Under the pieces are notes generated by a model. That model searched no databases, was not told the DNA's origin, and worked only from the letters and a program-made list of their open reading frames with translations. Positions 1,006 to 11,459 of a stretch of 40,904 nt of DNA are shown here, piece after piece. The position numbers and the translations under genes were made by a program. Numbering within the stretch: position 1 is the first letter of the stretch; every line of letters starts with the position of its first letter. Source of the DNA: a virus; the IMG/VR virus record IMGVR_UViG_3300001920_000006, positions 1 to 40,904 of that record; one strand, 5' to 3'.

Positions 1006-1377
1006 ATGCGAACCCATGAACCGCTCCGCCTCCCGATGACGGCTTCTTCGCCCGCTTCCGCGAAACGGCCACGCAAACCGGCTGCCGATTGGCATCCGGC
1101 CGACATCTCGGCCGAACTGCGCAAGCGCGGCCTGACGTGGATCGATGTCGGGCGCGAGGCGGGGTACGAGAACCCGAACTCCGCCCGCCAGTGCACCCGC
1201 GCCAGCGTGCCCCGGGCCGAGGCCGCGGTGGCGCGCCTGCTGGGCGTGCCGGCGCACAAGATCTGGCCGTCCCGCTACGATGCTCAGGGCCGCCCCCTCC
1301 GCGGTCAGTACGCAGTCATCTTCGGCGCCCGCCTCGCCGCCCGCAACAACGCGGACGACACGCCGGCCGCCGCGTGA
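1006..1377 (+). CDS. Ner-like DNA-binding regulator
   Basis: This is a small HTH regulator of the Mu Ner/Nlp family, which represses early and repressor promoters during the lytic cycle. The diagnostic core runs from DWHPADISAELRKRGLTW through an HTH to a near-invariant ending, LLGVPAHKIWPSRY, which corresponds to the Ner ending LGLHPQEIWPSRY. The 1006 start gives 123 aa. An internal ATG at 1036 gives 113 aa and is preferable if transcription starts near 1012, because the promoter overlaps 978-1007. Neither start has a strong ribosome-binding site. The stop overlaps the GTG of the transposase gene (GTGA), implying translational coupling. Confidence 0.85.
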   Translation: MRTHEPLRLPMTASSPASAKRPRKPAADWHPADISAELRKRGLTWIDVGREAGYENPNSARQCTRASVPRAEAAVARLLGVPAHKIWPSRYDAQGRPLRGQYAVIFGARLAARNNADDTPAAA

Positions 1378-3554
1378 GCGAGACGCTCCCCCTTCCCGCG
1401 CCCGAGCATCGGCCCGAATGGGCGGACCGCGCGGCCGAACTCGCCCGGCAGGATCTGTGGTCGGCCGAGGAGCTGCTGGCGCTGCGCCTGCCCAGCTTGC
1501 CGGCCACCGCCCGGCGCATCCGCGACGCCATGAACCGGGATCGCGTCCTGGCGCACGAGGAGACGGTGAAGGGCGGCCAGCGCCTGCTGTTCAACCGCCA
1601 CGCCATGCCGCGCGCCATCCGGCTGGAGATGGCGGCCGCCATCGCCCGCTGGCTGCCCGAGGCGCCCGCCGGCGCCGCCCAGGATGCGCCGGAGGCCGAC
1701 CTGCAGGCGCTCGCCCAGCTGCCCGGCCCCGCCCATGCCCGCGCCGTCGCCCGCCTCTCCGCCGTGCGCGCCTACGCCGCCTGGTCCGCCGCCGCGGGCC
1801 TGTCCGGCCGCCGCGCCGCCGACCGCTTCGCCGAGGTGTGGGAAGCCGGCGCCGCCGGCGTCGCGCCCTGGGTTCAGACCGCGCTCAAGGGCTTCTGCGG
1901 CGCCTCCCTCCTCGCCTGGCAGGCGACGCTGGCCGCCCACGGCGCCGCCGCGCTGGCCGGCCGCTACCGGCCCCGGGAAGCCGAGATCGACCGCACCCCC
2001 GCGCTGCTCGCCCGGGCCGAGGCCGCGATCGCCGAGTGGCCGCACATCACCGGCGCCCGGCTGCACGACATCCTGGCCCACCGCGCGACGGAACTGGACC
2101 TCACGCCGCCCGCGCCGCGCAGCGTGACCCGCTGGCTGACCGCCTGGAAGGCCGCGAACCGCGGCATCCACCTGGCGCTGGCGAACCCGGACGCGCACCG
2201 CAACCGCTACCGCCCCAGCTTCGGCAACGCCGCGGCCGACGCGCCGCACGTGAACGCCTGCTGGGAGTTCGACGACACCCCGGCCGACGTCCTGCTGACG
2301 GACGGCCAGCGCCACGCCGTGATCGGCGTGATCGACGTCCACACCCGCCGGCTGATGCTGCAGGTGCACCCCACCAGCACCGCCCACGGCGTCAGCCTGC
2401 TGCTGCGCCGCGCCCTGCTGGCCTGGGGCGTGCCGGACCGCGTGCGCACCGACAACGGCGCCGCCTACGTGTCGCGCCACGTCACCGGCGTGCTCGCGCG
2501 GCTGGACGTGGCGCACCAGGTGCTGCCGCCGTTCAGCCCGGAGAAGAAGCCCTTCATCGAACGGGCGCTGAAGACCTTCGCCTACGGCCTGGTGGAGCTG
2601 CTGCCCGGCTATGTCGGCCACGACGTGCCCGGCCGGAAGGCGATCGAAGCCCGCCGCAGCTTCGCCGCGCGCCTGTTCGGGAAAGACCAGGTGGTGGAAC
2701 TGCGCCTCGGCCCCGCCGAGCTGCAGGACGTCTGCGACCAGATCTGCGCCGGCTACAACAGCCGCACCCACGGCGCGCTGCGCGTCTCCCCCAACCAGAA
2801 GGCCGCCGGCGCGACAACGAAGGCGATCAGCGACCAGCGCGCGCTGGATGTGCTGCTGGCCCCGCTCGCCGGCCTGCGCGTGGTGACCAAGAAGGGCCTG
2901 CGGGCCGAGAACGGCACCTTCGTGCACCCGGAACTCGGCCGCCTGGTGGGCGAGACGGTGGAGTGCCGGCAGGACCCGGCCGACGCCGGCCGCCTGTACG
3001 TGTTCGACCAGAACGGCGCCTTCGTGTGCGTGGCCGAGGACCCGGACCGCACCGGCGTGTCGCGGCAGGAGATCGCGTCCGCCGCCAAGGCCATCGCCGC
3101 GCGCCAGCTGGCCGACGAGCGCGCCCGGATGCGCGAAGCCCGCCGGCGCGAGATCCCGGACGCGACCGCCCTGGTGCGCGACATCGTCAACGCGAAGGCC
3201 GCCAGCACCGTCGTCGCCTTCCCGGGCCGCAGCACGTCGCACGACAGCACCGGAATGCAGGCCGCGGCGCAGGCCGCGCGTGCCGACGACGCACCCCAGG
3301 CCCCCGCGCGCACCGCGATCGACGCCGAACGCGCCCGCCGCGTCGCGGCCGATGCCGCGCGCCGGCTGACGGCCGCGCAGGCCGACAACGATCAGGCCGC
3401 GAAGCGCGCCCGCCAGGCGCGCGCGCTGGCCATCCACGACGCGCTGGCGGCGGGACACCCGCCGGCGGAGGCCGATGCCGCGTGGTTCGCGACCTACCGG
3501 GAAAGCCCGGAGTTCCGGACGGCGCTGCACTTCCGGCGGTCAACCACCGCCTGA
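1374..3554 (+). CDS. MuA-like DDE transposase
   Basis: This protein catalyses strand transfer and replicative transposition of the phage. The GTG at 1374 overlaps the ner stop and gives 726 aa, compared with 663 for MuA. Residues about 15-80 form the Mu-type winged-helix end-binding domain (LWSAEELLALRLPSLPATAR). The catalytic core holds the DDE triad: D300 in WEFDDTPADV, D360 in RTDNGAAY and E396 in KPFIERALKTF. A Mu-type C-terminal beta-barrel follows at about residues 475-570. The last 150 residues are Ala/Arg-rich and helical, matching the MuA tail that contacts MuB and ClpX. All key residues are present, so the enzyme should be active. Confidence 0.95.
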   Translation: MSETLPLPAPEHRPEWADRAAELARQDLWSAEELLALRLPSLPATARRIRDAMNRDRVLAHEETVKGGQRLLFNRHAMPRAIRLEMAAAIARWLPEAPAGAAQDAPEADLQALAQLPGPAHARAVARLSAVRAYAAWSAAAGLSGRRAADRFAEVWEAGAAGVAPWVQTALKGFCGASLLAWQATLAAHGAAALAGRYRPREAEIDRTPALLARAEAAIAEWPHITGARLHDILAHRATELDLTPPAPRSVTRWLTAWKAANRGIHLALANPDAHRNRYRPSFGNAAADAPHVNACWEFDDTPADVLLTDGQRHAVIGVIDVHTRRLMLQVHPTSTAHGVSLLLRRALLAWGVPDRVRTDNGAAYVSRHVTGVLARLDVAHQVLPPFSPEKKPFIERALKTFAYGLVELLPGYVGHDVPGRKAIEARRSFAARLFGKDQVVELRLGPAELQDVCDQICAGYNSRTHGALRVSPNQKAAGATTKAISDQRALDVLLAPLAGLRVVTKKGLRAENGTFVHPELGRLVGETVECRQDPADAGRLYVFDQNGAFVCVAEDPDRTGVSRQEIASAAKAIAARQLADERARMREARRREIPDATALVRDIVNAKAASTVVAFPGRSTSHDSTGMQAAAQAARADDAPQAPARTAIDAERARRVAADAARRLTAAQADNDQAAKRARQARALAIHDALAAGHPPAEADAAWFATYRESPEFRTALHFRRSTTA

Positions 3555-3610
3555 AACGAGAGCGGCCCGGCAGCGCGCCAACGCTGACCGGGCCGGCACG
3601 AAACGAGAGA
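3553..3610 (+). other. Hairpin flanked by a short direct repeat between transposase and MuB genes
   Basis: CGGCCCGG (3563-3570) pairs with CCGGGCCG (3588-3595). On each side lies GAAACGAGAG, first at the transposase stop and again near 3600-3609. There is no T tract, so this is not a typical intrinsic terminator. It is the only sizeable gap in an otherwise overlapping operon and could adjust the transposase to MuB expression ratio or mRNA stability. That role is inferred. Confidence 0.35.
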
Positions 3611-3630
3611 GACGAAAAGGGACATACCGC

Positions 3631-4392
3631 TTGACCGATCCGAAAAGCAAGCCTCCAGGGACAGCGACGATCGCCGCGCTGCGCAACGTGCAGGCGTTCT
3701 ACGAGGCGGTGGACCGTGCGCAGCGGCGCATGCACCACCTGCCCGGCCTGGTGGTGTTCCACGGCCCATCCGGCTGGGGAAAAACCTTCAGCGCGCAATA
3801 CGCCGCGCAGGTGCACCGGGCCTACTACGTCGAGGTCCGCAGCGTGTGGACCAAGCTGGCGTTCTGCAAGGCCGTGCTGGCCGAGATGGGGCTGGAGCCC
3901 GCGGCCCGCGTGTACGACATGGTCGCCCAGATCAGCGAGGGCTTGGCCCACAGCCGCCGCCCGCTGATCATCGACGAGGCCGACCAGGTCCTCGGCCGCG
4001 GCTACATCGAGGTGATCCGCGACATCCACGAGGCCAGCGGCTCCGTGGTGGCCATGATCGGCGAGGAGCGGCTGCCCGCCAAGCTGAAGGCGGCCGAGCG
4101 GGTCCACAACCGTGTCATCGCCTGGGTCGCCGCCGTGCCCACGGACATGGACGATGCGCGCGCCCTGGCCGAGATCTACGCCAAGCGGCTGACGCTGGCC
4201 GATGACCTTCTGAACGCCATCGTCCACGCCTCGCGCGGCGGCGCCCGGCGCATCTGCGCGAACCTGGAAGACGTGGTGGAGGAAGCGCGCCGCCGCCCGC
4301 AGGACGTGCTGGATCTGGCGTGGTGGGGCGACCAGCCCTTCAAGTCCGGCGACGTGCAGCCCCGCGCGACGCCGTGGCGGCCAGCGGCATGA
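3631..4392 (+). CDS. MuB-like AAA+ ATPase, transposition target selector
   Basis: This is the MuB homologue: an ATP-dependent DNA-binding protein that delivers target DNA to the transpososome and gives target immunity. A TTG start at 3631 is chosen because AAAAGGGA lies about nine bases upstream and homology begins there; it gives 253 aa. An ATG-type start further upstream would overlap the transposase gene and add Arg-rich nonsense. Walker A is GPSGWGKT (residues 45-52) and Walker B is LIIDEAD (D115, E116). The C-terminal part (about 170-235) is helical, like the MuB C-terminal domain. The stop overlaps the next ATG. Confidence 0.9.
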   Translation: MTDPKSKPPGTATIAALRNVQAFYEAVDRAQRRMHHLPGLVVFHGPSGWGKTFSAQYAAQVHRAYYVEVRSVWTKLAFCKAVLAEMGLEPAARVYDMVAQISEGLAHSRRPLIIDEADQVLGRGYIEVIRDIHEASGSVVAMIGEERLPAKLKAAERVHNRVIAWVAAVPTDMDDARALAEIYAKRLTLADDLLNAIVHASRGGARRICANLEDVVEEARRRPQDVLDLAWWGDQPFKSGDVQPRATPWRPAA

Positions 4393-5437: not shown

Positions 5438-5694
5438 TCCACCAGGATCTGCTGAACCTGTCCGAACGCCTGCTGGAACACGCGATGGGCCGCCCGCTCT
5501 CGCGCCAGGACGCGGGCCGGCTGCACGAGCAGCTGGAGGACATCGCCGACCGCGTGAAGCGGCTGGAACACTACGGCGTGGTGCCGGCGGCGCTGCGCCA
5601 GCCGGCACGCTTGGCCGAGCCGGTGGACGCCTGCCGCCACCCCGCGATCGCCGCGCCGGTGGTGGACCTGGCTCTGGTGCGGGGGGCGCGCTGA
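5434..5694 (+). CDS. Small early protein, unknown function
   Basis: This 86-aa protein is helical at its N terminus (HQDLLNLSERLLEHAMGRPL), followed by a coiled-coil-like RLHEQLEDIADRVKRLEHYG segment and a Pro/Ala-rich tail. It has no recognised family. AGGAACCCACGGA precedes the ATG, which overlaps the upstream stop as ATGA. The stop overlaps the next gene as TGATG. Its position between an HTH protein and the GapR-like gene points to the early operon, but nothing indicates a specific function. Confidence 0.65.
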   Translation: MIHQDLLNLSERLLEHAMGRPLSRQDAGRLHEQLEDIADRVKRLEHYGVVPAALRQPARLAEPVDACRHPAIAAPVVDLALVRGAR

Positions 5695-6092
5695 TGGCCC
5701 GCACCGCGACCCGCGTCGCCGACACCGTCGTCGCCAGGCCCGTGAAGCCCGCGCAGGCGGTGGCCGTGATCCCGCCGCCCCGCCGCGGCCACAACAGCGC
5801 GCGCGACCGCCTGGCCGGCATCGTCGCCCGCCTGCAGCGGCTCGATGAGGAGATCAAGGGCCTCAACCGCGACAAGAGCGACGTGTTCAGCGAGGCGAAG
5901 GCCGCCGGCATCGACGTGGCCGGCCTGCGCGGCGCCCTGCGCTACCTTCGCGACCCCGAGAAGGCCGAGGAGCGGGACGCCGCCACCCGCGCCCTGCTGG
6001 CGGAGCTGGAGGGGCTTGACGCCACCCCCTCGCGCGCGCACGTGCACGTGCACGCGCGCGAGGCCACCCCGGACGACGGGGAGGCCGCGTGA
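5694..6092 (+). CDS. GapR-like (DUF2312) nucleoid-associated protein
   Basis: This 132-aa protein contains a DUF2312/GapR-type helical domain at about residues 37-110: DRLAGIVARLQRLDEEIKGL, then DKSDVFSEAKAAGIDVAGLR and a conserved RD.EK.EER...LL..L pattern. GapR is an alphaproteobacterial protein that encircles overtwisted DNA ahead of replication and transcription machinery and stimulates topoisomerases. The phage copy has a 36-residue basic, Pro-rich N-terminal extension and an acidic, His-rich tail. It sits directly before a DnaA domain IV-like gene, so a role in phage DNA replication topology is plausible. The start is coupled to the upstream stop and preceded by a GGGGGG run. Confidence 0.8.
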   Translation: MARTATRVADTVVARPVKPAQAVAVIPPPRRGHNSARDRLAGIVARLQRLDEEIKGLNRDKSDVFSEAKAAGIDVAGLRGALRYLRDPEKAEERDAATRALLAELEGLDATPSRAHVHVHAREATPDDGEAA

Positions 6093-6511
6093 CCCCCGCC
6101 CAGGCGCTGGCCCAGTTCCAGTCCATCGTCCTCCGCGCCACGCAGCTGCAGGCCGACATCAACGCGCTCGGCAACACGCTGGCCACCGCCGGCGTGGTGC
6201 CGCGGGTGTTCGCGCAGCCGGCGCTGGCCCGCATCCTGGCCGTCGTTGCGCGCGACCACGGCACCACGGTGGAGATGCTGCGCGGCTCCCGCCTGGATCA
6301 GCCGTTGGTCGAAGCCCGCCAGATGGCGGCCTGGCTGATGGTGCACGCCACCACCGCCACCACCCCGCAGATGGGGCGAGCGATGAACCGCGACCGCACC
6401 ACCGTGCAGTGGTGCGCCAAGCGCCATCAGGCGCGGATGGACGCGGACCGAGACGTCCACACCCGCACCACCGAGCTGCTGATGGAACTCTCCGAAAGGA
6501 ACGCCGCATGA
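6089..6511 (+). CDS. DnaA domain IV-like DNA-binding protein
   Basis: This is a 140-aa protein starting with GTG at 6089 (GTGA overlap). From about residue 49 it follows the DnaA C-terminal DNA-binding domain: ILAVVARDHGTTVEMLRGSR, then VEARQMAAWLMVHATTATTP, then GRAMNRDRTTVQWCAKRH. The R101-D102-R103-T104-T105 segment corresponds to the DnaA signature RDHTTV that reads the DnaA box. There is no AAA+ domain, so it cannot be a full initiator. It could bind host or phage DnaA boxes to compete with or guide replication. One perfect DnaA box is present in the phage (11269-11277). Confidence 0.8.
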   Translation: MTPAQALAQFQSIVLRATQLQADINALGNTLATAGVVPRVFAQPALARILAVVARDHGTTVEMLRGSRLDQPLVEARQMAAWLMVHATTATTPQMGRAMNRDRTTVQWCAKRHQARMDADRDVHTRTTELLMELSERNAA

Positions 6512-7065
6512 AGCGCATCAAGACCCGCGCCACCACGGTGGCGATCCCGCGCGACCGGGCCGAGGCCGAGCGCATGGTGGCCGAGATCGGCGCCGCCATG
6601 CGCGCGCGCGACGTGATCCAGGCCGCGCTGGACGAGACCATCGCCGCCGCCAAGACGAAGGCCGAGGCCGACGCCGCGCCCCACGCGCGGATCATCGCCC
6701 AGTGCACGGAGGGGCTGCAGAAATGGGCCGAGGCGAACCGTGCGGCGCTGACCAACGAGAACCGCACCAAGACCGTGCGCCTGGCCACCGGCGAGGTCAG
6801 CTGGCGCGACCGCCCGGCCAGCGTGCGCATTACCGGCGCCGAGGATGTGATCGCCCGCCTGCACGAGCTGAAGCTGGATCGCTTCGTCCGCACGAAGGAG
6901 GAGGTGGACAAGGCCGCGATGCTGAAGGAGCCGGACGTGGCGCGCAGCGTCGCCGGCGTCGCCATCGGCAGCGCGGGCGAGGAGTTCATCGTCACCCCGG
7001 ACACCACGCCGCTGGACAGCGTGGAGGCTCACAACCGCGCCGCCAGCGCATTGGCGGCGTCATGA
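6508..7065 (+). CDS. gam: Gam-like host-nuclease inhibitor
   Basis: This is a Mu Gam family protein (185 aa), an end-binding Ku-like protein that shields linear phage DNA from RecBCD-type exonucleases. Evidence is the N-terminal long helix (AEAERMVAEIGAAMRARDVI and onward), the TVRLATGEVSWRDRPASV strand segment typical of Gam, and the C-terminal E.F.V.P half. GAAAGGAA lies seven bases before the ATG. As in Mu, it lies between the transposition genes and gemA/mor. The start is separate from the upstream gene only by an ATGA overlap. Confidence 0.9.
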   Translation: MKRIKTRATTVAIPRDRAEAERMVAEIGAAMRARDVIQAALDETIAAAKTKAEADAAPHARIIAQCTEGLQKWAEANRAALTNENRTKTVRLATGEVSWRDRPASVRITGAEDVIARLHELKLDRFVRTKEEVDKAAMLKEPDVARSVAGVAIGSAGEEFIVTPDTTPLDSVEAHNRAASALAAS

Positions 7066-7190
7066 GCGCCCGGTGGTGGCGCCGCCGCGTGCTGCGCCGG
7101 CGCCAGCGCAGCCTGGCCCGCACCCTGCTGGCCCTGCCGCTGGAACTGCGGGTGCTGGCGATCGCCGTGATCAGGGGAGGGGCGCGATGA
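7062..7190 (+). CDS. Very small basic protein, unknown
   Basis: This is a 42-aa reading frame that exactly fills the gap between gam and the next gene with ATGA overlaps at both ends. The N-terminal half is Arg-rich (MSARWWRRRVLRRRQRS) and is followed by one hydrophobic segment (TLLALPLELRVLAIAVI). It could be a small membrane-associated or RNA/DNA-binding peptide. Its reality rests on the perfect overlap pattern and codon bias, not on homology. Confidence 0.5.
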   Translation: MSARWWRRRVLRRRQRSLARTLLALPLELRVLAIAVIRGGAR

Positions 7191-7456
7191 ACGAGCCCCT
7201 CGACGTGCCGCAGGTGGCCGCGCTGCTGGCCGAAAACGCCCCGCAGGAGGACTGCGTGGCGCTGATGAAGCAGGTTGGCGCGCTGGTGCACGGCCATCCC
7301 CACGCGGTGGCCACGCTGGCGCTGTGCGGCGAGCTGGGCGTGGTGCTGGCCAGCGCCCCGCCCACGATGCGGGCGTCGCTGGCCGTGCTGATCGGCCAGA
7401 TCATCGGCCGCGCCTGCAACGACACGCTCGCCCTGCGCACCCGGGTGCTGCAATGA
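7187..7456 (+). CDS. Small early protein, unknown
   Basis: This is an 89-aa acidic-to-neutral helical protein (NEPLDVPQVAALLAENAPQ and onward) with no recognised domain. A strong GGGGAGGGG ribosome-binding site lies just before the ATG, stronger than those of its neighbours, so it may be made in larger amounts. It is coupled to genes on both sides. No function can be assigned. Confidence 0.65.
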   Translation: MNEPLDVPQVAALLAENAPQEDCVALMKQVGALVHGHPHAVATLALCGELGVVLASAPPTMRASLAVLIGQIIGRACNDTLALRTRVLQ

Positions 7457-7662
7457 CCGCCGCGCTGCGCCTGGCGCGCATCCTGCTCGCGCTGCCGCTG
7501 GCCGTGCTGGCCGTGGCGGCCATCTTCGCGGCCGCGATCGTGGGCCTGTCCGTCGCCGGCGTCCTGGGCATCGGCATCATCACCGCTGCCGCTGCCGCCC
7601 GCCTCGCCGGCGTCCCCATCCCCATCGAGCGCAGCTTGACCGAACGCAGGTGGCACGAATGA
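7453..7662 (+). CDS. Small membrane protein
   Basis: This is a 69-aa protein that is mostly hydrophobic. One segment covers residues about 8-30 (ARILLALPLAVLAVAAIFAA) and a second about 28-52. Either one long or two short membrane helices are possible. The basic C-terminal end (RSLTERRWHE) is probably cytoplasmic. It overlaps both neighbours by four bases. Similar small membrane proteins occur in early regions of transposable phages, but none was specifically recognised. A holin role is possible but unsupported, since no lysis genes adjoin it. Confidence 0.6.
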   Translation: MTAALRLARILLALPLAVLAVAAIFAAAIVGLSVAGVLGIGIITAAAAARLAGVPIPIERSLTERRWHE

Positions 7663-8615
7663 CCCCGCCGGAGATCTCCGCGGCCATCTGCAAGGCCCGG
7701 GCCGAGGCGTGGCGCGGCGCCGCCTCCCTCGTCACCGCGCTGCTCTCCACGCACGAGGACGCGGTGCCCCAGGCCGCGATCCGCGAGGTGCAGGACGCGC
7801 TGCTGCGCCGCGCCGACACGGCCGAGCACAACGCCGCCACCCTGGCGCCGACAGCGGGGGCGGCGCCCGCGGCGCCCGACGTGCCGGCGCCGGTGCAACT
7901 GATCTTTCACGGCCGATCCGTGGTCGACGACGCTCCGCCGCCGCCCGCGGCCGCGCCCTCCATCGGCCCCGGCCTCACGCGCGCCGAGGCGCCGGTCACG
8001 CTTGCGCCCGAAGCGCCGGCCCGCCTCTCGCCCGCCGGAGTGCGCGAGCGGGCGCTGCAGCTGCTGCAGGCGCGCTCGCCCGATCCGCTGTGCGCGCACG
8101 CGCTGGCCGAGGACGCCGGCGTCTCCCTCCAGTCGGCGGCGAACGCGCTGTCCGACCTGCGGCTGCGCGAACATGCCGCCCTGGTGCGTGCGACCGATGA
8201 CCTGCGCGCCCGCTACCCCGGCGTGCGCGTGGCCTACGTGCTGCCGCACCACGCGCCGGCCGAGGCTGCCGAACCGCCGTCCCAGCCGCCCCAGAGCGCA
8301 CCGCGCCGATGGGTGGGCGCGCTGGACACGCGGGTGCCGGGGGAGGATCTGCGCACGCCGGCGGAGCGGGAGACGATCCTGGCCTGGGCGCGCGCCAACA
8401 AGGTGGCGCTGCCGGACGCCGGCGACACCAAGGGCGGCTGGCTCAACCGCGCGATCCCCGCCATCAACCGCAAGCGCGTGGACCTCGGCCTGCCGGCCTT
8501 CCGGCTGATCACTACCATCCGCGACACCAGCCGCGCCGAGGCCGAGGCCATGCACCGCGCCGGCCAGGTCGGCAGCCCCACCCCGCACGCGAAGCCCGCG
8601 CAGGGCGCCGCGTGA
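7659..8615 (+). CDS. Putative DNA-binding protein with central HTH
   Basis: This is a 318-aa protein. The N-terminal helical part (1-60) is followed by a long Pro/Ala linker. A probable HTH lies at about 125-175 (VRERALQLLQARSPDPLCAH, then LAEDAGVSLQSAANALSDLR). A C-terminal domain at about 220-290 contains ERETILAWARANKVALPDAG and NRKRVDLGLPAFRL. The ATG at 7659 overlaps the upstream stop; an in-frame ATG nine bases earlier also exists. It may be an early regulator or a replication accessory protein, but no family was recognised. Confidence 0.65.
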   Translation: MTPPEISAAICKARAEAWRGAASLVTALLSTHEDAVPQAAIREVQDALLRRADTAEHNAATLAPTAGAAPAAPDVPAPVQLIFHGRSVVDDAPPPPAAAPSIGPGLTRAEAPVTLAPEAPARLSPAGVRERALQLLQARSPDPLCAHALAEDAGVSLQSAANALSDLRLREHAALVRATDDLRARYPGVRVAYVLPHHAPAEAAEPPSQPPQSAPRRWVGALDTRVPGEDLRTPAERETILAWARANKVALPDAGDTKGGWLNRAIPAINRKRVDLGLPAFRLITTIRDTSRAEAEAMHRAGQVGSPTPHAKPAQGAA

Positions 8616-9076
8616 TGGGCGCGCTGGTGGTGGCCCCGTCGCGGCAGATGGGCAAGGAGGCGGCGTGCCGCGCCGCCCTGCAGGCCGAGGCCGTCACCGC
8701 CGCGCTGCTGGCCGTCACCGACGCGCACACGGGCACGCGGGAGCTGGACGCGGCGGTGCTGCACGCGCTGGGCTGGCAGACCCAGGCGCCGGCCCCGCGC
8801 ACCCGCCAGGCCTGGCGCTGCCGCAGCCCGCTGGCGCGGCTCTGGCTGCCCATGCCCCGCATCACCGCCAGCCTGGATGCCGCGCGCGACACGGTGCCCT
8901 TCGGCTGGTCCTGGGGCGTGGGCGTGCGCGACGGCCACCCCTTCGCCTGGTGCCGCCCCGCGCGCGGCAGCGACTTCATGGAGGCCGCGCACGTCGCCGC
9001 CCCGCTGGCGCTGACGAAGGCCGCGCTGCACGGCCACCGCGCGCTGCTGATGGCCGCCCTGGCAGGTGCGGCATGA
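8615..9076 (+). CDS. Early protein, unknown
   Basis: This 153-aa protein is not recognised. The ATG at 8615 (or the GTG at 8612) overlaps the upstream stop. The middle is Arg/Trp-rich (TRQAWRCRSPLARLWLPMPR) and the latter half contains WGVGVRDGHPFAWCRP and a helical end. It looks soluble, with no signal peptide or membrane segment. Its placement directly before the DnaA domain I-like gene suggests a replication or transposition accessory role, by context only. Confidence 0.6.
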   Translation: MGALVVAPSRQMGKEAACRAALQAEAVTAALLAVTDAHTGTRELDAAVLHALGWQTQAPAPRTRQAWRCRSPLARLWLPMPRITASLDAARDTVPFGWSWGVGVRDGHPFAWCRPARGSDFMEAAHVAAPLALTKAALHGHRALLMAALAGAA

Positions 9077-9615
9077 GCGGCCAGTTCCGCCTGCCCAGCC
9101 TGTTCGGCCGCGCCCTTCCGGCGCCCCTGAAGGCCGATTTCGAGGCGTTCTGGAAGGCCTATCCGCCGCGCCGCCCCAACCCACGCGTGCAGGCCGAGGT
9201 GGCGTTCGTCGCCGCCTGCCGCCGCGCCACGCCCGCGCAGCTGGTGGCCGCCGCCGGGGCCTTCGCGGCGGAGTGCGTGGCCCGCAAGATCGACCCCGCC
9301 TACGTCCCCCACGCCGCCACCTGGCTGCGCCAGGACCGCTGGGCGGACTACCTGGCCGCGCCCGCACCCGCGGCCGAGGCGGCGGAGCCCGAGGGCCCGC
9401 TGTGGCAGCGTCTGCGCGGCCGCATCGGGGCCGACGACTACCGCGTGTGGATCGCCAAGTTGGCCATCCACGACTGGGTGGAGGGCGACCGCATCCTGCT
9501 GCGCGCGCCCAGCACCTTCCACCGCGACTACGTGCGATCGAACTTCTTGGCGCTGCTGCGCGCCGGCCTGGGCGTCAACACCGTCGGCATCCTCGGCCCG
9601 CGGGATCCCGGCTGA
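9073..9615 (+). CDS. Replication-type protein with C-terminal DnaA domain I-like module
   Basis: This is a 180-aa protein in two parts. Residues about 23-95 carry the FEAFWKAYPPRRPNP and YVPHAATWLRQDRWADYL segments found in phage replisome-organiser/primosomal proteins. Residues about 110-167 resemble DnaA domain I: LWQRLRGRIGADDYRVWIAK, then a strand-rich ILLRAPSTFHRDYVRSNF match to the W...Wi.pl...l.l.aPn.f..~~v pattern. DnaA domain I binds DnaB helicase and regulators. Together with the domain IV-like protein at 6089, the phage encodes two ends of DnaA on separate chains without the ATPase middle. It may recruit host helicase to transposition forks. Confidence 0.7.
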   Translation: MSGQFRLPSLFGRALPAPLKADFEAFWKAYPPRRPNPRVQAEVAFVAACRRATPAQLVAAAGAFAAECVARKIDPAYVPHAATWLRQDRWADYLAAPAPAAEAAEPEGPLWQRLRGRIGADDYRVWIAKLAIHDWVEGDRILLRAPSTFHRDYVRSNFLALLRAGLGVNTVGILGPRDPG

Positions 9616-10235
9616 TGGCCAACCCGAAGCTGATCGCCGCGATCCAGGCCTGCCGCCGCCAGGTGCCGGGGCTGGAGGATGACGACACCTGGCGAAGCTG
9701 GCTCAAGGGCGTCGCGGGGCAGGACAGCCTGCGCGCCATGGACGGCCGCGCGCTGGGCCGGGTGATGGACGCGCTGCACGCCGCCGGCGCCCCCCGCCGG
9801 CCCGGCGCCGGCGCGGCCGCGAAATCGCTCGCCGACAGCCCTCAGGCCCGCATGGCGCGCGGCCTGTGGATCGAGCTGGCGGACGCCGGCGCCGTGCGCG
9901 ACCGGTCGGAGAAGGCGCTCGCCAGCTTCTGCCGCCGCGTGACGGGCGTGGACCGGCTGGAATGGCTGCGCGCCGAGCAGGCGAACAAGCTGGTGGAGGC
10001 GCTGAAGGACTGGCGGAAGCGCGCCGATCAGCAGGCTGATCGGCGGACTGTGGAAGAACTGTGGGACGCGCTGATCGCCGCCGGTGCGATGAAGACCGGC
10101 GCGCACGCTCGGCTGGGGACCTGGTTGCTGAAGAACTACGGCGTCGCCGGCACCGAGCACCTGGCCACCGCCGACCTGGCCGAGGCCCGCACCCGCCTGC
10201 TGCGCTGGCTGGCGCGCGTCGAAGCGCCGCGATGA
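9615..10235 (+). CDS. gemA: GemA-like (Mu gp16, DUF1018) regulatory protein
   Basis: This is a 206-aa protein of the Mu GemA/gp16 family. GemA in Mu affects DNA supercoiling and host gene expression early in infection. Family signs are the N-terminal KLIAAIQACRRQVPGLEDDD and WRSWLKGVAGQDSLRAMDG segments and the long central and C-terminal helices (RLEWLRAEQANKLVEALKDW). It sits immediately before the Mor-like activator, the same order as in Mu and its relatives. The start is coupled through TGATG. Confidence 0.85.
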   Translation: MANPKLIAAIQACRRQVPGLEDDDTWRSWLKGVAGQDSLRAMDGRALGRVMDALHAAGAPRRPGAGAAAKSLADSPQARMARGLWIELADAGAVRDRSEKALASFCRRVTGVDRLEWLRAEQANKLVEALKDWRKRADQQADRRTVEELWDALIAAGAMKTGAHARLGTWLLKNYGVAGTEHLATADLAEARTRLLRWLARVEAPR

Positions 10236-10953: not shown

Positions 10954-11459
10954 TGCCGGCCTACAGCTTCCAGCAGCGCTTCGTGCCCGCCTTGCTGGCG
11001 GGGCTTGAGCCCGGGCCGTGGGTGCCGGGCATGAAGCGGATGACGATCCGCGCGCCGCGCAAGCGGGCGCCGCGGCTGGGCGCTCTGGTGCACCTGTTTG
11101 CCGGCATGCGCACACGGGACTGCCGCAAACTGGGTGCGGCGCCGTCGGTCATAGTGCTGCGCGTGGCGATCGGCTGGGGTGCTGAAGGCTTTACCGTGGG
11201 GCCGACCCGCAAGAGCTGGGTGGCCGCACCTGTCCGGCGCGCCGAACTGCCGTCTGTCCTGACTGACTTGTGGATAAAGGGGCAGCTGCACGGCGAGCAA
11301 CTCCACGCACTTGCCCAGGCCGACGGCTTCGCCGACGCGGCGGAGATGGAGGCGTTCTTCGGGCGCCACCTCAGCGTCGACCGTCCGGACCAGTGCTGGG
11401 CGGAGTTCGACCTGATCGCCTGGGCGCCGGCCGGAGGCAGCCATGCCGATCCGCGCTGA
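10953..11459 (+). CDS. PUA/ASCH-like fold protein
   Basis: This is a 168-aa protein. The pattern YSFQQRFVPALLAGLE, then KRMTIRAPRKRAPRLG, then LVHLFAGMRTRDCRKLG with a following V.V.I strand fits small phage ASCH/PUA-like proteins, which may bind RNA or modified nucleotides. The call is by pattern only. The gene contains a rare-codon stretch at 11266-11283 (Leu-Trp-Ile-Lys as TTG TGG ATA AAG) that forms a perfect DnaA box. Base use in the second half is less G+C-rich than in its neighbours. Confidence 0.6.
   Translation: MPAYSFQQRFVPALLAGLEPGPWVPGMKRMTIRAPRKRAPRLGALVHLFAGMRTRDCRKLGAAPSVIVLRVAIGWGAEGFTVGPTRKSWVAAPVRRAELPSVLTDLWIKGQLHGEQLHALAQADGFADAAEMEAFFGRHLSVDRPDQCWAEFDLIAWAPAGGSHADPR
11269..11277 (-). 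promoter_or_regulatory. Perfect consensus DnaA box
   Basis: TGTGGATAA reads TTATCCACA on the minus strand, the strongest E. coli-type DnaA box. No second perfect copy was seen by eye. In DNA this rich in G+C a chance match to a 9-mer with six A/T bases should be rare. It lies within the ASCH-like gene and forces an ATA codon. It could be a target of host DnaA or of the phage DnaA domain IV-like protein. Confidence 0.55.

Follow-up and report, generated by a model that had tools for sequence, protein, structure and literature searches.

Why would a transposable phage carry the first and last domains of DnaA, the bacterial replication initiator, in separate genes, without the AAA+ domain that lies between them? 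The question is raised by a virus record from IMG/VR (IMGVR_UViG_3300001920_000006), of which we analyzed positions 1 to 40,904; this stretch, the window, comprises 40.9 kb out of 43.6 kb and has a guanine-plus-cytosine (GC) content of 74%. The phage is Mu-like, with a MuA/MuB/Gam/GemA early region, and within this region lie the two genes of interest, here called P0001 and P0002:

6089..6511, + strand: P0001, DnaA domain IV, the box-reading helix-turn-helix (PF08299, TIGR00362, phmmer, AlphaFold, Foldseek)
9073..9615, + strand: P0002, a fusion of an FWxAYP domain (residues 17-106) and DnaA domain I (residues ~109-175) (PF11638, phrog_270, AlphaFold, Foldseek)

Two early phage genes encode separate DnaA domains

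Both open reading frames are real genes; they lie in a run of overlapping early genes and show strong codon-position GC bias. The GTG start of P0001 overlaps the stop of a GapR-like gene (GTGA overlap at 6089; codon-position GC 0.71/0.50/0.94), and P0002 begins with an ATGA overlap at 9073 (0.75/0.56/0.96). Within P0001, residues 48-106 match Bac_DnaA_C (PF08299) with 43.4 bits against a curated cut-off of 31.5, and the DnaA equivalog model TIGR00362 aligns to it (E 6e-10) by its last part only, which is domain IV. Similarly, phmmer retrieved the DNA-binding domain of M. tuberculosis DnaA (3pvp, E 2e-10). The AlphaFold (AF2) model of P0001, with a predicted local distance difference test (pLDDT) score of 92.2, has as its best Foldseek matches in the PDB the domain IV structures of M. 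tuberculosis (3pvp) and E. coli (1j1v), at a root-mean-square deviation of ~1 Å and a target template-modelling (TM) score of 0.93. A 30-residue N-terminal helix stands where DnaA would have its AAA+ domain, and RDRTT stands at residues 101-105. These results confirm P0001 as a stand-alone DnaA domain IV.

P0002 has two recognizable parts. Residues 17-106 align with the C-terminal portion of initiators of phage replication (phrog_270, E 5e-15; phrog_9327), and residues 112-163 match DnaA_N (PF11638) with 36.2 bits against a curated cut-off of 24.6. The best PDB matches of its AF2 model (pLDDT 88.7) are DnaA domain I of B. subtilis and H. pylori (4tps and 2wp0; Foldseek probability 1.00, target TM 0.56-0.65). 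Lower-ranked Foldseek matches are to DnaB-bound DciA of V. cholerae (probability 0.87-0.89), which would suit a reading of the C-terminal domain as a DANL domain of the DciA type, structurally related to DnaA domain I, and hence as a phage copy of the loader by which alphaproteobacteria load DnaB (PMC9825169). We consider this highly improbable: DnaA domain I structures score higher, all sequence profiles lead to DnaA_N and none to the DciA family, and the leucine-bearing C-terminal extension of DciA, which binds DnaB, is not seen in P0002. P0002 is thereby confirmed as the FWxAYP C-terminal domain of O-like initiators joined to a genuine DnaA domain I.

An earlier note, made from the DNA letters, had described just this arrangement: domain IV with RDRTT at 101-105 in the first protein, a domain I-like module from L110 behind a replication-type segment in the second, and the AAA+ middle missing. 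Its residue positions were right for both proteins, and the DnaA AAA+ domain (PF00308) was indeed absent from the phage record and from four relatives. As one of two outcomes that would speak against it, the note had named a structure prediction in which neither protein has a DnaA-type fold; the predicted folds are those of DnaA domains IV and I. Chance similarity to DnaA is ruled out by the curated cut-offs, the models and conservation.

Residues with known roles are conserved in part. With domain I residues numbered as in E. coli DnaA, position F46 is F in 17 of 18 phage sequences, P0002 included, and position E21 is acidic in 14 (D in P0002), while W6 is kept in eight and replaced by R in six. 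In DnaA, E21 and F46 contact DnaB and W6 is needed for dimerization (PMC5448010).

The gene pair is found in related transposable phages

The closest relatives were not found by searches with single sequences: in the viral_contigs set P0001 had none and P0002 had only FWxAYP-domain relatives, and a single-sequence transposase scan found none either. Alignment-based scans did, yielding 80 transposase loci, one Elioraea locus with the fusion, and 80 FWxAYP-domain loci (loci are labelled L with a number). The in-house hidden Markov models (HMMs) were partly seeded with phage sequences, and key members were rechecked with Pfam, whose curated cut-offs confirm most family members; domain IV relatives score 56-77 bits with Bac_DnaA_C, and nine of ten relatives lie above the PF11638 cut-off for domain I.

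Among 89 Mu-like loci with MuB and GemA, a domain IV gene was present in 15 of the 17 that have domain I, as compared to 5 of the 72 others (Fisher p 5e-11 per locus, in a test that counts related phages repeatedly and includes loci found via the fusion). After clustering by MuB the association was weaker but still there (p 9e-5 at 80% identity, 0.004 at 60% and 0.04 at 45%). Thus the two genes do co-occur in relatives, the point on which the earlier note had said its proposal could fail. A sample of 50 records was chosen by transposase rather than by the fusion; there, curated Pfam models placed both domains above cut-off in one record and domain IV by itself in four, whereas no record had domain I by itself. 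In paired loci domain IV is nearly always placed between MuB and GemA, across several MuB families, and the order MuB - domain IV - Gam - ... - domain I - GemA is kept in loci with divergent transposases; in L152 the domain IV gene lies upstream of the transposase. The ratio of nonsynonymous to synonymous substitution rates (dN/dS) between relatives is 0.2-0.5 for both genes, which indicates purifying selection and hence maintenance as functional proteins. On these comparisons the pair is conserved in related transposable phages and, since domain IV occurs without domain I, it is not obligate from the domain IV side.

A profile of the fusion, searched over 397 genomes of the Elioraea order, recovered full-length fusions in eight genomes, the query genome included. 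The lower-scoring matches listed were mostly domain I of host DnaA, so that the homology holds in reverse. GemA was present in 43 of the 397 genomes, among them seven of the eight fusion genomes; therefore, only a minority of the Mu-like prophages in this order have the fusion.

Some variants of the domain IV gene were also observed. In L139, L140, L142, L146, L147 and L150 it starts directly at the MuB stop codon, and its product has an N-terminal heptad-like helix (LRTQVDLLSRRVRALE). Another protein of the DnaA domain IV type is RHWG_00044 of Rhodobacter phage RC1 (L006:6702-7244; PF08299, 39 bits), whose annotation is hypothetical protein.

P0002 resembles a rebuilt O-like initiator

Where might the parts have come from? 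Residues 17-106 of P0002 correspond to the C-terminal FWxAYP domain of O-like initiators (phrog_270, phrog_9327; lambda O type), but P0002 lacks the ~150-200-residue N-terminal part of its non-Mu relatives, has DnaA domain I added, and belongs to a phage that replicates by transposition. Indeed, it begins 16 residues before the FWxAYP domain, short of the N-terminal region of at least 100 residues that we took to mark an O-like initiator, whereas in 53 of 75 non-Mu loci with the domain the frame extends at least 100 residues before it. A recognizable domain I was found with the in-house HMM in none of the 75, and a separate domain IV gene lies nearby in 12. From these sequence patterns, P0002-type proteins of transposable phages seem to have arisen from an O-like initiator of which the C-terminal half was kept and the N-terminal part dropped, with DnaA domain I added. 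The dropped part was probably origin-binding, by analogy with lambda O, and its loss would fit a phage that starts replication at transposition forks rather than at an origin.

The 12 non-Mu loci with an O-like gene and a stand-alone domain IV are L158, L159, L160, L164, L186, L192, L194, L196, L202, L203, L205 and L215; in L160 a single frame holds two copies of domain IV. A non-Mu O-like initiator in L192 (5721-6740) ends in a weak domain I-like segment (PF11638, 19 bits, below cut-off) and is a possible intermediate architecture.

Possible role at transposition forks

What might the two proteins do? In E. coli, the forks left by Mu strand exchange receive their DnaB from the DnaB-DnaC complex through PriA, PriC and DnaT (PMC3334882), and most bacteria are without DnaC/DnaI homologues, Caulobacter for example loading DnaB with DciA (PMC9825169). 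The likeliest reading, to which we give an even chance, is that P0002 recruits host DnaB, with or without DciA, to phage forks, with P0001 as a DNA-binding partner or regulator. P0001 and P0002 would then form a conserved early replication module, built from DnaA parts, of transposable phages of GC-rich alphaproteobacteria. MuA/MuB transposition would create the forks; DnaA domain I on P0002 would be a helicase-docking module bringing host DnaB to them after transposition, alone or with the host loader DciA, and would replace the PriC/DnaT-DnaC work of E. coli in hosts without DnaC. P0001, from the same gene run, would be a companion that binds double-stranded DNA, at phage sites other than canonical DnaA boxes or at host DnaA boxes, and the two proteins may cooperate physically. 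The earlier note had proposed a tethering of DnaB at transposition forks, and this idea survives in conditional form, the largely kept E21 and F46 and the segment derived from O-like initiators both being consistent with it.

The same note had suggested that the proteins bind DnaA boxes, and this part is not borne out for phage DNA. We take R399, R407, D433, H434 and T435/T436 to be the DnaA-box contacts in the 1j1v structure. P0001 retains R407, D433, T435 and T436, but R399 is changed to L and H434 to R; its DNA specificity has probably shifted. In the domain IV of module members R407 is invariant, with D433 present in 14 of 15, R399 in 13 of 15 and H434 in 12 of 15; the box-reading residues are intact in L013, L101, L148 and L149. 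DnaA-box arrays on phage DNA were considered as targets and rejected: across the 15 module loci, which are partial and include some host DNA, the exact box TTWTNCACA occurs twice where ~2.3 copies are expected, and for a looser form the count is 29, with ~24 expected. The window has a single exact box, TTATCCACA, at 11269-11277 inside a coding region, and none was found in L013 or L101. Without such arrays, the claim that the phage's own boxes are bound is not supported.

Several observations weigh against a helicase-recruiting module. Canonical DnaA boxes are, as just described, not enriched in the phage or its relatives. L153, L154 (and L155) have domain I without a recognizable domain IV gene, although enough of their early sequence is present; their domain I is more divergent. 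In most Mu-like phages both genes are missing. Species with dciA conserve the residues by which E. coli DnaB binds DnaA only moderately or poorly (PMC9825169), so that conservation of E21 and F46 may not mean DnaB binding, and these two residues also bind DiaA, a competitor of DnaB (PMC5448010). Recruitment of DnaB by P0002 is itself a predicted step. Furthermore, domain IV occurs without domain I in six Mu-like loci (RC1, L076, L082, L084, L087 and L088).

This last observation would suit two independent domestications. Only P0002 would then have a part in replication, while P0001 would regulate early or middle transcription and use the DnaA domain IV fold by happenstance; their linkage would reflect shared operon position only. 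Domain IV also stands beside ordinary O-like genes in the 12 non-Mu loci listed above, and its recognition residues vary more than one would expect of a constrained box reader. Nevertheless, the association with domain I survives clustering, domain IV stays beside MuB or Gam in lineages with divergent transposases, and in non-Mu phages it likewise adjoins replication genes, which points to a role in replication; we therefore regard independent domestication as doubtful.

Alternatively, the proteins could be decoys for host takeover, P0001 occupying the DnaA boxes of host oriC and P0002 capping domain I of host DnaA or titrating DnaB; the host would cease to initiate and its helicase would become available to the phage. 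For an initiator that works as an oligomer, truncated pieces are obvious dominant negatives, and as the phage genomes have no DnaA-box arrays, host boxes are the obvious canonical targets for the versions in L013, L101, L148 and L149. There are precedents as well: YfdR, from a cryptic prophage, is an inhibitor of initiation that binds DnaA domain I (PMC4776307), and for lambda P a sequestering of DnaB has been proposed (PMC3640518). A pure inhibitor, however, would have no need of the replication-initiator domain to which domain I is fused in P0002, and the box contacts of P0001 are altered. Moreover, W6, needed to poison contacts between copies of domain I, is lost in six members while E21 and F46 are kept, which favors helicase docking over poisoning of DnaA oligomers. 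We hold the decoy explanation to be unlikely, though not negligible.

A further elaboration of helicase recruitment, which we think improbable, would have DnaA dispersed over three proteins, with MuB as the AAA+ platform, P0001 as domain IV and P0002 as domain I, forming a DnaA-like complex that loads helicase at transposition forks. In the six loci in which the stop codon of MuB directly meets the start of the domain IV gene, the order is AAA+ then domain IV, as inside DnaA.

Comparison with known systems

The phage pair resembles bacterial DnaA in its domain folds, in family-level sequence and in the residues for helicase contact (domain I) and, in most relatives, for recognition (domain IV), which are largely kept. 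It differs in being split over two genes 2.6 kb apart, in having no AAA+ domain III, ATP switch or oligomerization core, and in carrying domain I at the C-terminal end, behind a phage domain. The early region shares gene set and order with those of Mu and Mu-like phages (MuA, MuB, Gam, GemA, C/Mor), but Mu relies on host PriA/PriC/DnaT/DnaC to load DnaB. Orphan domain IV proteins of alphaproteobacteria and their phages (NF004688 / PRK06030; RC1 RHWG_00044) are likewise stand-alone and found in phage early regions, whereas P0001 travels with a domain I gene, which RC1 lacks. As proposed for P0002, the DnaT/preprimosome and DciA loaders are small recruiters that bring DnaB to forks other than oriC, and DciA has a domain I-like fold; unlike them, P0002 is phage-encoded, and it is not homologous to them by profile. 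Parallels between DnaT and DnaA have been proposed (PMC13377028).

Neither protein has a match among 50,697 phage records, bar one match to the FWxAYP domain, in agreement with the earlier note's remark that neither occurs in Mu. A query for the fusion returned no phage or plasmid record in annotated collections, and the open-access papers searched gave no description of a phage-encoded DnaA domain I or of the pair, which the earlier note had also not seen described as a system. Phages are known to capture parts of host replication systems. For Mu in E. coli it is established how replicative transposition is handed over to the replisome of the host; for hosts without DnaC/DnaI, a phage that bears DnaA domain I on one of its replication proteins suggests an answer that can be tested. 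If true, domain I would be a portable helicase-docking module away from oriC, which would bear on a recent suggestion that initiation and restart recruit by a common logic (PMC13377028).

The early region of the phage

The early genes run in the order repressor (on the minus strand), Ner, transposase, MuB, regulator, helix-turn-helix gene, small gene, GapR-like gene, P0001, Mu Gam, small genes, P0002, GemA and late activator; thus MuA, MuB, Gam, GemA and the late activator are all present in Mu-like order. The neighbors identified are:

1374..3554, + strand: MuA-like transposase (phrog_310, E 3e-88; 54% identity to the Elioraea prophage transposase)
3475..4392, + strand: MuB-like AAA+ transposition protein (AAA_22, 47 bits; phrog_296, E 2e-54); start uncertain, homology beginning at ~residue 59
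5694..6092, + strand: GapR-like gene directly upstream of P0001 (PF10073, 42.6 bits against a cut-off of 22.6; syntenic in L013, L101 and L151)
6508..7065, + strand: Mu Gam-like end-protection protein directly downstream of P0001 (PF07352, 113 bits)
9615..10235, + strand: GemA, directly downstream of P0002 (PF06252, 132 bits)

The nearest named relative found is the Elioraea prophage L101, with the same gene order and with transposase and MuB 54% and 61% identical, and we infer an Elioraea-like alphaproteobacterium as host. A tRNA-Ala(ggc) called by ARAGORN at 3371-3446 on the minus strand lies inside the transposase gene, where Rfam finds nothing, and is probably spurious. PADLOC gave no match for membership of a defence system, and an early protein of 321 residues (7650-8615) matched nothing in Pfam or PHROG with the thresholds applied. 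The GapR-like gene (PF10073), related to a protein that binds DNA overtwisted ahead of forks, overlaps the start of the domain IV gene in the clade of the window (5694-6092 in the window, 4775-5098 in L013, ~6600-6953 in L101, and L151), and GapR-like genes also lie near domain IV genes in L087 and in the non-Mu loci L158, L159, L164 and L186.

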